A stretch of 64,000 bases of DNA from Paracoccaceae bacterium (GTDB taxonomy: Bacteria > Pseudomonadota > Alphaproteobacteria > Rhodobacterales > Rhodobacteraceae), in NCBI GenBank assembly GCA_018222585.1, contig JAAFAB010000002.1, positions 744,001-808,000 of the forward strand, written 5' to 3'. The notes below the pieces were generated by a model. The model was not told the origin of the DNA, ran no database searches, and saw only the letters and a program-made list of their open reading frames with translations. Position 1 is the first letter of the stretch; the number at the start of each line of letters is the position of its first letter. The position numbers and the translations under genes were made by a program. Below are positions 46,377 through 49,083 of this stretch, piece by piece.

Positions 46377-46979
46377 ATGAGCCGCAGGATCGACTACTAC
46401 TTCACGACCATTTCGCCCTGGACCTACCTGGCCGGCGACGGGCTGGAACAGATCGCCGCCCGCACCGGCGCCGAGATCCGCTACAAGCCCGTCGACCTGA
46501 TGAAGGTCTTCGCCCAGACCGGTGGGCAGCCCCTGGGAGAGCGGCCCCTGGCCCGGCGCGAGTATCGGATGCAGGAACTGCGCCGTGCCAAGGTCAAGAC
46601 CGGCATGGACCTGGTGCTGGAACCGGCCTTCTTCCCCACCAATCCCGCGCCGTCCTGCTACGCGATCATCGCCGCCGACAAGGCCGGCGGGGGCGACACC
46701 GGCCTGCTGGTGCGCAGCCTGCTGCGCGCCTGCTGGGCGGAAGAGAAGAACATCGCCGAGGACGAGGTGATCCGCGAGGCGCTCTCGGAGGCAGGGTTTG
46801 ACCCCGCCATCGCCGACAGCGGCCTGCTGACCGGCGCCGAGGTCTTCGCCCGCAACACCGAGGACGCGGTGGCCGAGGGGGTCTTCGGCTCTCCCTTCTA
46901 CGTCGTCGACGGGGTCGAGAGGTTCTGGGGCCAGGACCGGCTCGCCGATCTCGAAGCCCATCTGACCGGCCGTCTGTGA
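46377..46979 (+). CDS. 2-hydroxychromene-2-carboxylate isomerase / DsbA-fold oxidoreductase family
   Basis: The 200-aa cytoplasmic protein has a thioredoxin-like fold of the DsbA/HCCA-isomerase family. It opens '[18 protein letters not shown]', where Ser replaces the first Cys of thioredoxins as in HCCA isomerases and kappa-class GSTs. It contains the cis-Pro segment '[21 protein letters not shown]' near the end. These enzymes use glutathione for isomerisation in aromatic degradation, but the substrate in this organism is unknown. ATG 46377 follows GGGAGGG. It is translationally coupled (TGATG) with the alpha/beta hydrolase gene downstream. Confidence 0.85.
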
Positions 46980-47815
46980 TGCGGGGAATCGGGCTGCGCA
47001 GCTGGGGGGAGAGCGGGCGCAAGGTGCTAATGCTGCACTGCTCCCTGGCCCATGGCGGGGCTTGGACCGGGGTGGCGCGGGCGCTGGCGGCGCAGGGGAT
47101 GGATCTGCAGGCCCGCGCCATGGACCTGCCCGGCCATGGCCGGAGCGCCGACTGGGATCCGGCACGCAGCTTCCAGCAGCAGGCCCGGGAGATGGCCGAG
47201 GCCGTGATCGCCGACTGGGGCGGCCCGGTCGATGTGCTGGGCCATTCCTTCGGCGCCACCGTAGCCCTGCGGCTGGCGGTGGACCGCCCCGGGCTGGTGC
47301 GGTCGCTCGCGCTCTACGAGCCGGTCTTCTTCACCCCCGCCTTCCGGATGTTCGCCGGGCTGGAAGCCCGTCACGACGCCGAGCTCGCCCCCTACCAGAG
47401 CGCCTGGAAGGCCGGTGACCGCGAGAGCGCGGCGCGGGCCTTCATGGCGACCTGGGGCGACGGCCGCCCCTGGGAGGCCCTGCCGGAGGGCCAGCGGGCG
47501 GCCTTCACCAGCCGCATCCACCTGATCGACGCGATACGGGACACGAATTACGGCGATCCGGCGGGGATGCTGTCGGAGGGCAAGCTGGCGGCGCTGTCCT
47601 GTCCGGTGCTGCTGATGGACGGTGCGGAAAGCCCGGTCTACGTCGCCCGCATCAATGACGTGCTGCAGGCCGAGATGCCCTTTGCCCGGCGCGAGGTCCT
47701 GCCCGGCGCCGCACATATGGGGGTGCTGACCCACCCCGATCAGGTGGCGGCGCGGATCGCGGCCTTCCTCTCGGATGTCGAGGAAACGCCAAGGGAATTT
47801 TCAACCATGGAGTGA
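46979..47815 (+). CDS. Alpha/beta-fold hydrolase
   Basis: The 278-aa protein has the alpha/beta hydrolase pattern: oxyanion region '[11 protein letters not shown]', nucleophile Ser in '[12 protein letters not shown]', a possible acid Asp in '[11 protein letters not shown]' and catalytic His in '[10 protein letters not shown]'. Substrate and pathway are unknown. ATG 46979 overlaps the preceding TGA by one base, which fixes the start. It probably acts with the DsbA-fold isomerase. After its stop lies an unusual AT-rich region with four palindromes before the convergent ltaE. Confidence 0.88.
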
Positions 47816-47856
47816 TCTTGCGGGTGACCTTGCCGCTTTGCATGCGAAAGCGCCCT

Positions 47857-48035
47857 GCAAGTCATTTGACTTTCTGCCACTTCCGCAAGCGATATCACTT
47901 GCGAGGAGTTCCTCATTTGTAACATTCACAACGTTGCGCAAGTGATTTCGGTTTCACTAAAAACCTGCGCCAGGCTCTCCGGCGCAAGAAAAACGGGGCG
48001 ACATGAAGATCGCCCCGCAAGTGATTTTACTTTCA
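47857..48035. promoter_or_regulatory. Cluster of four operator-like palindromes
   Basis: Four related sites occur in 180 nt: AAGTCATTTGACTT (47859-47872, perfect 6-bp arms), CGCAAGCGATATCACTTGCG (47884-47903, 18 of 20 symmetric), GCGCAAGTGATTTCGGTTTCACTA (47936-47959) and CGCAAGTGATTTTACTTTC (48016-48034). They share a GCAAGT(C/G)AT half-site in both orientations. This looks like a binding array for a dimeric regulator or DNA-organising protein, yet it lies between two convergent genes, where no promoter is expected. The regulator is not identifiable. Confidence 0.55.
47989..48016 (-). terminator. Rho-independent terminator of the ltaE operon
   Basis: Read on the minus strand: GGGGCGA-tcttcatg-TCGCCCC, then GTTTTTCTT. 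A 7-bp perfect stem followed by a T-run lies 30 nt after the ltaE stop. A second hairpin with T-run (GCGCC...GGCGC, AGGTTTTT) lies just beyond at about 47959-47985. Confidence 0.75.
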
Positions 48036-48045
48036 GGGAAACTCT

Positions 48046-49083
48046 CTATCCGCGGGCGATTTCCAGGAAGCGGTCGATTTCCTCGGTGGGCAGGGACCAG
48101 TCGCAGACGAAACGGGCCTGCAGCATCTCCTCGTCGGGTCCCTCCAGATCGCCGTCCAGGTAATAGAGGGCCCCGGCCTCCTTCAGGCGGCGGTGCATCG
48201 CCCGGGGCAGCGCGGCGAAGACGAGGTTGGCCTGGGGCGTTTGCAGGAAGCTGGCACCCAGTTCGGTCAGTCCGGCCGAGAGACGCGCCATGTTGGCATT
48301 GGCGCTGCGCGCCATTTCCAGCCAGAGATCCCCGTCGAGATAGGCCAGCATCTGCGCCGAGAGATAGCGGTGCTTGGAGAACAGATGCGCCCCGCGCTTG
48401 CGCCGCAGCTCGAATTCCCAGGCGTGCCGGGGGTTGAAGAAGATCACCGCCTCGACGCCGAGACAGCCGTTCTTGGTGCCGCCGAAGCTGACCGCATCGA
48501 CGCCCGCGCGCCAGGTCATCTCGGCCGGGGTGCAGCCGAGCGAGACCAGCGCATTGGCGAAACGGGCCCCGTCCAGGTGGGTCGGCTGGCCGGCCCGGGC
48601 GGCAACGGCACTCAGCGCGGCGATCTCCTCGCAGGTGTATATACGTCCCTTTTCAGTGACTTGCGTGATCGACAGCGGACCGGGCTGGGCGGCGTGCACG
48701 GCGATCTTCGCCTCGCTGCCCATGGCGGCGGCCAGAGCGTCCGGGTCCAGCTTGTCGCTGTCGCCGACCGGGGTCAGCTTGCCGGCACCCATGTAGAACT
48801 CGGGCGCATTACACTCGTCTTCATTGATATGGGCGACCGGCGTGCAGAACACCGTCTGCCAGGGCTCGGCCAGGGTCGCCAGCGCGAGCGCGTTCGCGGC
48901 GGTGCCGGTGGCGACCAGGTAGACCGCTGCCTCGGGCGCCTCGAAGATCCCTCGCAGCTTCGCGCGGACCTCCTCCATGATCGGATCGTTGCCATAGGGC
49001 ATGGCATAGCCCTGGTTGGCGTCTGTCACGGCCTCGATCACCTTCGGGTGGGCGGGGCCGGCATTGTCGGATGCAAAGTACAT
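48046..49083 (-). CDS. ltaE: Low-specificity L-threonine aldolase
   Basis: This PLP enzyme cleaves L-threonine or allo-threonine to glycine and acetaldehyde. The 345-aa product has 'MYFASDNAGPAHPKVIEAV', 'ATGTAANALALATL', the Asp in 'THLDGARFANAL' that contacts PLP, and the Schiff-base Lys in 'VSFGGTKNGCLG'. Its ATG overlaps the stop of the upstream ycgN-like gene by one base. The order glyA, ribF, ycgN, ltaE on one strand places two glycine-forming enzymes close together. A clear terminator follows it. Confidence 0.93.
   Translation of the reverse strand: MYFASDNAGPAHPKVIEAVTDANQGYAMPYGNDPIMEEVRAKLRGIFEAPEAAVYLVATGTAANALALATLAEPWQTVFCTPVAHINEDECNAPEFYMGAGKLTPVGDSDKLDPDALAAAMGSEAKIAVHAAQPGPLSITQVTEKGRIYTCEEIAALSAVAARAGQPTHLDGARFANALVSLGCTPAEMTWRAGVDAVSFGGTKNGCLGVEAVIFFNPRHAWEFELRRKRGAHLFSKHRYLSAQMLAYLDGDLWLEMARSANANMARLSAGLTELGASFLQTPQANLVFAALPRAMHRRLKEAGALYYLDGDLEGPDEEMLQARFVCDWSLPTEEIDRFLEIARG

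Follow-up and report, generated by a model that had tools for sequence, protein, structure and literature searches.

What are four closely packed palindromes doing in a gap between two convergent genes? The question is raised by a 230-bp gap in the window, by which we mean the whole 64,000-nucleotide stretch of DNA that was analyzed. The window belongs to a 5.15-Mb genome (G000) of the Rhodobacteraceae, assigned to the GTDB genus of Pseudooceanicola. On one side of the gap, an alpha/beta hydrolase gene (Abhydrolase_6; 46976 to 47815, + strand; PF12697, E = 1.5e-18) ends at position 47815. On the other, an ltaE-like gene of the beta-eliminating lyase/threonine aldolase family (48046 to 49083, - strand; PF01212, E = 3.2e-45) has its stop codon at position 48046. 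The gap has a G+C content of 47-52%, compared to ~65-75% in the flanks.

A sequence-only reading had described this AT-rich gap between convergent genes and four sites within it, AAGTCATTTGACTT (47859-47872), CGCAAGCGATATCACTTGCG (47884-47903), GCGCAAGTGATTTCGGTTTCACTA (47936-47959), and CGCAAGTGATTTTACTTTC (48016-48034), all of which were found as written. The proposal that they look like protein operators stood. Of its three candidate explanations, a hidden small-RNA promoter and a chromosome-organizing protein found no support, and a decoy or titration array is kept as a candidate alongside a transcription roadblock. Taken as a whole, the explanation that we consider probable is that the gap carries an ectopic cluster of operators for a SatD-like protein, most likely serving as a roadblock or titration patch.

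Four palindromic sites in the gap

The sites are better described in the register of an 18-mer palindrome, GMAAGY-N6-RCTTKC, with starts at positions 47857, 47885, 47938, and 48017 and spacings of 28, 53, and 79 bp. They were scored with a matrix of 42 sites taken from SatD-like promoters outside the window's clade, the weakest of these training sites reaching 16-17 bits. On the + strand, operator 1 (GCAAGTCATTTGACTTTC, 47857-47874) scores 26.2 bits; operator 2 (GCAAGCGATATCACTTGC, 47885-47902), an almost perfect palindrome that starts 28 bp after operator 1, scores 27.7 bits; operator 3 (GCAAGTGATTTCGGTTTC, 47938-47955) scores 22.2 bits; and operator 4 (GCAAGTGATTTTACTTTC, 48017-48034) scores 26.2 bits. 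Random sequence of equal composition, 20 Mb in all, gave no site of at least 22 bits.

Such sequences are rare and concentrated in the gap. The word GCAAGTGAT occurs three times in the window (0.18 expected), always in the gap, and GCAAGTGATNTNACTT occurs in the window 11 times at up to three mismatches (1.2 expected), with seven of these matches in the gap. At no more than one mismatch, the latter has five matches in the entire genome, four of them in the gap. Pattern and model searches found no second comparable site cluster in the 5.15-Mb genome, and isolated single matrix matches lie at C20:314816 (21.6 bits), C35:304182 (22.7 bits), and C35:677565 (20.4 bits). A search of plasmid and phage DNA for similar sequence gave chance matches of ~30 bp and nothing more. 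A 24-bp match in another genome (G030) lies inside an apparent coding region and was taken as chance.

Palindromes can also fold, and between operators 3 and 4 the - strand carries two hairpins (47993-48018, not conserved by eye in the relative G003, and 47964-47988) that resemble terminators of the ltaE-like gene. These features would suit a reading in which the sites are not DNA operators but RNA hairpins, of the REP-like or terminator type. However, the GAAAG...CTTGC and GCAAG...CTTTC variants break the stem through A-G and C-T mismatches while retaining the half-site GMAAGY, and the sites of relatives overlap promoters upstream of start codons. Because the variants break the stem but keep the DNA half-site, we rejected the RNA-hairpin reading, which we regard as scarcely credible.

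A SatD-like regulator and its putative paired operators

To learn where the motif occurs elsewhere, 397 family genomes were searched for two motif sites 8-38 bp apart, with no gene used as a reference. Twelve other genomes carry such pairs, all with a total length of 47 bp (equal to a 29-bp spacing) and all beside one type of gene, which encodes a SatD-like protein. A 21-bp tandem repeat (GCAAGCGGGTTCGGTTTCGTC) at G159:C5:157590-157754 was set aside as a chance match to the two-site pattern. A model of the 47-bp pair matches in 48 of the 397 genomes, and 47 of these 48 carry the SatD-like gene, which is present in 85 of the 397 overall. In the sole exception, G258, the matrix finds no site. 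Among the arrays listed, all adjoin the SatD-like gene, as judged from coordinates by eye, with one exception: of the 47 genomes, that of the window alone has its array on a different contig from that gene (array on C35, gene on C20). The cluster is beside neither the SatD-like gene nor a DUF3307 partner of the kind described below. Operators 1 and 2 together match the pair model with E = 0.007 in their own genome.

The converse search, starting from protein similarity alone, gave the same association. One or more sites scoring at least 13 bits are present in 28 of the best 30 SatD-like loci, mostly as 29-bp pairs; 11 of the genomes also contributed sites to the matrix and the others are new. 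The pairs are located upstream of the SatD-like gene and often again at its junction with the DUF3307 gene. Thus, when we asked whether the motif also precedes a regulator gene, as the sequence-only reading had suggested checking, the answer in relatives was yes: the sites are paired at the promoter of the gene for the SatD-like HTH protein. Outside these chromosomes, an operator pair spaced by exactly 29 bp (25.3 and 27.4 bits) is present in a viral contig (IMG/VR 3300035698_003255; L180:606-652), together with a ribonucleotide-reductase-like gene. Searches of the phage collection and of viral contigs gave no SatD-like protein.

The regulator has ~200 residues, begins with a sequence like MxxxVLTGDIVGS, carries RGDGWQ further on, and has an HTH near its C-terminus. 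Its gene in the window's genome (G000:C20:17441-18019) is behind a sufT-like gene, and the usual neighbors are a PF01883 (FeS_assembly_P, SufT-like) gene upstream and a DUF3307 gene downstream. In profile comparison, the first half of the protein weakly matches the class III nucleotidyl cyclase Ma1120 (PDB 4wp8/4wp9; E = 0.001, profile positions 3-92), and the end matches HTH regulators, not significantly. The motifs GDIV..S and RGDGWQ are shared with these cyclases, a likeness of sequence alone; unlike them, the regulator has a fused HTH. The Rhodobacteraceae regulator proteins that were searched have no Pfam match at E ≤ 0.001, PF16264 (the SatD family) included, and no meaningful NCBIfam match. 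Although the regulator is below the Pfam cut-off, so that its relatedness to the SatD family is by profile comparison alone, it can be aligned, along its length, to a PF16264 protein of G003 (E = 3e-6 in hhalign, probability 88). A second likeness to the SatD family is the adjoining DUF3307 (PF11750) gene of the relatives, which the window's clade lacks.

A full-text literature search on the SatD family protein and DUF3307 returned nothing on such a circuit by title and abstract, and one on cyclase-HTH proteins with SatD returned nothing relevant by title, both in a collection that leaves most subscription journals outside its coverage. Operator arrays as such are already known, but this regulator family, with its paired operator of 29-bp spacing, appears to be undescribed.

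The arrangement of the pairs suggests how they might work. When 29 promoter pairs are aligned on both sites, they share GCAAGC-N6-RCTTGC TTTTC...AA GCAAGCGATATNACTTGC, and many of them have the start codon only a few bases further on. A -35 element (TTGCNN) coincides with the end of site 1 and, after 17 nt, a -10 element (TATNNN) just before the ATG coincides with the center of site 2. This forms an apparent sigma-70-like promoter whose two elements each lie inside an operator, and binding of the regulator should therefore shut its own promoter, in negative autoregulation by occlusion. Transcription factors that repress themselves through several operators are familiar from lambda-repressor-like and TetR/MarR-like circuits. 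Paired palindromes that cover the promoter of the SatD-like regulator itself and precede its partner gene resemble these circuits, whereas the window's cluster is far from the regulator and from any recognizable promoter.

An additional 29-bp pair was observed in another genome (G015:C34:115049-115095; L258:1501-1547), 3.4 kb from the SatD-like gene and between convergent DeoR-like and tgt-like genes (names read from sequence, with no profile search) whose stop codons are ~55 bp apart. Since this pair keeps the 29-bp spacing and lacks the TATA-like center, the spacing probably also reflects two bound dimers touching each other. For the regulator family, this yields a DNA motif and also predicts a mechanism, in which two dimers 29 bp apart occlude the promoter.

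Could another regulator, or a nucleoid protein with the same GCAAGY half-site, be the true partner of the motif? The link between the motif and the SatD-like gene is one of position only, which leaves room for this alternative. However, motif pairs are found almost exclusively next to SatD-like genes, and in one case site variation parallels a changed recognition helix: G422 (C20, L246) has GGAAG...CTTCC sites and, in place of RQAVxQAL, the helix TREAVNQRL, which may be a switch in specificity. The earlier suggestion of a chromosome-organizing protein fits poorly with a cluster that is specific to one clade and with sites that elsewhere are close to genes. We consider a different protein quite improbable. 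The recognition helix TRQAVRQAL is identical in the window's genome and in G007, which has GCAAG sites; because the helix is unchanged between these two and different in G422, the protein of the window's clade should still read GCAAG. On this comparative evidence, the four sites very likely serve the SatD-like protein as operators. An orphan site cluster would thereby be tied to a specific uncharacterized regulator family found in about one-fifth of the sampled Rhodobacteraceae.

Apparent operator turnover in the window's clade

Only one of 60 relatives, G003, matches the window at the DNA level over most of the gap (67%). It has four syntenic sites, at spacings of 29, 53, and 79 bp, with GCAAGTGATTTGACTTTC, GCAAGCGATTTTGCTTGC, and GCAAGCTATTTCGGTTGC as the counterparts of operators 1, 3, and 4, respectively. 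The second spacing of 53 bp and the third of 79 bp are thus the same in both species, and both are outside the 29-bp rule of the promoter pairs. Three good sites are present at ltaE in G017, and G018 and G022 have weak ones (10-20 bits); the ltaE loci of the remaining members of the genus lack the cluster. In a tree built from the ltaE-like protein, with 17 of 23 rows recovered, the five cluster genomes can be one clade, compatible with a single origin (support only 69/65).

The window and G003 are 76% identical inside the sites, 50% identical in the rest of the gap, and 74% identical at fourfold sites of the ltaE-like gene. Their sites differ by 17 substitutions, and the summed scores are 102 bits for the window and 97 for G003. 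When equal numbers of random changes were simulated, the summed scores fell to ~20-22 ± 11-12, and none of 50,000 simulations was as good as the observed sites, in both directions. The motif has stayed intact through 17 changes, which argues for selection on binding in these two species and indicates that the sites are kept for binding in both.

The five cluster genomes (G000, G003, G017, G018, and G022) have kept the SatD-like gene, which in G000 is still behind sufT. The adjoining DUF3307 gene is absent in all five and present in all 11 of the other genomes of the genus with a SatD-like gene; the same five genomes without this neighbor are those that carry the ltaE cluster. Weak DUF3307 matches of G000 and G003 belong to a separate PF16264 locus. 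In this clade, the SatD-like promoter has no GCAAG site and instead has a strongly conserved GGAAGC-N6-GCTTCC and a GGTTAACC region. It looks as if another regulator has taken over this promoter, judging from its sequence. Across the promoter of the clade (L215:1270-1486 and orthologues), GGAAGCWTTCGCGCTTCCCAGATC and GGTTAACCTTTCC are strongly conserved. The cyclase-like signature is altered as well, with LGDTSWQ replacing RGDGWQ and, in G018 and G022, GTIE replacing GDIV.

PF16264 matches in G000 and G003 (2 of 23 genomes) were also tried as a partner gene and rejected, being a separate second system without the motif nearby. At these loci (G000:C55, L205; G003:C129, L204), a short gene similar to the end of a DUF3307 protein lies behind a true PF16264 SatD gene, and the two form a parallel pair without the motif that within the genus is confined to G000 and G003.

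Because the clade in which the cluster arose has also lost its DUF3307 gene and, at the SatD-like gene, its GCAAG sites, the cluster might be a functionless remnant of an operator region that was moved with DNA from the SatD-like locus. The degraded sites of G018 and G022 would suit such an origin. Yet the 17 changes between the window and G003 preserve the motif, where chance would bring a steep loss, and we consider a remnant very unlikely. For G018 and G022, the weak sites may mean either that the cluster is decaying or that specificity is shifting there. Operators thus appear to have turned over, lost at the regulator's own gene and gained at a distant convergent junction, where they would be under selection in at least two species.

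Candidate roles of the cluster

What could operators do at this junction? One proposal, also that of the sequence-only reading, is a hidden small-RNA or antisense promoter under dense regulation by the SatD-like protein. Paired sites cover promoters in relatives, site 2 of the window has GATATC where the -10 element would sit, and a 16-bp block between operators 2 and 3 (GTAACATTCACAACGT, 47919-47934, unstranded) is common to G003. In the pairwise alignment, this is the longest common block outside the sites (G003 form GTCACATTCGCAACGT, 14 of 16 positions identical), with diverged surroundings. However, a consensus scan found no sigma-70-like promoter in 47700-48150, site 2 of G003 (GTGGAAAGG) is without a TATA-like core, and a scan of the region with Rfam gave no match. 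Moreover, a small-RNA gene sits badly with identity to G003 that outside the sites is lower than at ltaE-like fourfold sites (50% versus 74%). We therefore judge a small-RNA promoter unlikely. With no promoter, no Rfam match, and little conservation outside the sites, binding itself is the remaining conserved trait.

The explanation that we prefer, an ectopic operator cluster, can be set out as follows. A regulator with a cyclase-like N-terminal domain and a C-terminal HTH is the putative reader of the four palindromes. Elsewhere in the Rhodobacteraceae, a 29-bp pair over its own promoter would shut the regulator off, and a second pair is often found before the DUF3307 partner. The window's clade would have lost the partner gene, the GCAAG sites of the regulator promoter, and part of the cyclase-like signature and would have gained the four-site cluster between two convergent genes. 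Having no recognizable promoter, the cluster most likely forms a patch of bound protein that halts read-through between the hydrolase and ltaE-like genes or that ties up the regulator. The additional pair of G015 likewise lies between convergent genes and leaves no room for a small-RNA gene. Comparative evidence supports the identity of the motif, selection on the sites in the window and G003, the link to the regulator gene, and the absence of a recognizable promoter. From these, we infer that the SatD-like protein binds the window's sites and that they act as a transcription roadblock or in titration; for these two local roles taken together, we lean only slightly toward acceptance.

Some observations count against this explanation. 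The ltaE sites of G018 and G022 are weak, the first two sites of the window are 28 bp apart rather than 29, sites 3 and 4 depart from the 29-bp rule, the SatD-like promoter of the clade has GGAAGC-N6-GCTTCC, and three members of the genus (G009, G005, and G004) lack an ltaE cluster although their SatD-like gene has diverged and is without GCAAG sites.

As a more tentative and doubtful extension, there may be an undescribed family-wide circuit in which a protein with a cyclase-like domain fused to an HTH acts, through 29-bp operator pairs, on its own gene and on that of a DUF3307 membrane protein; one clade would have lost the partner and rebuilt the operators as a promoterless four-site roadblock or insulator between convergent genes. 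The window's clade offers a natural test of operator function without a promoter.
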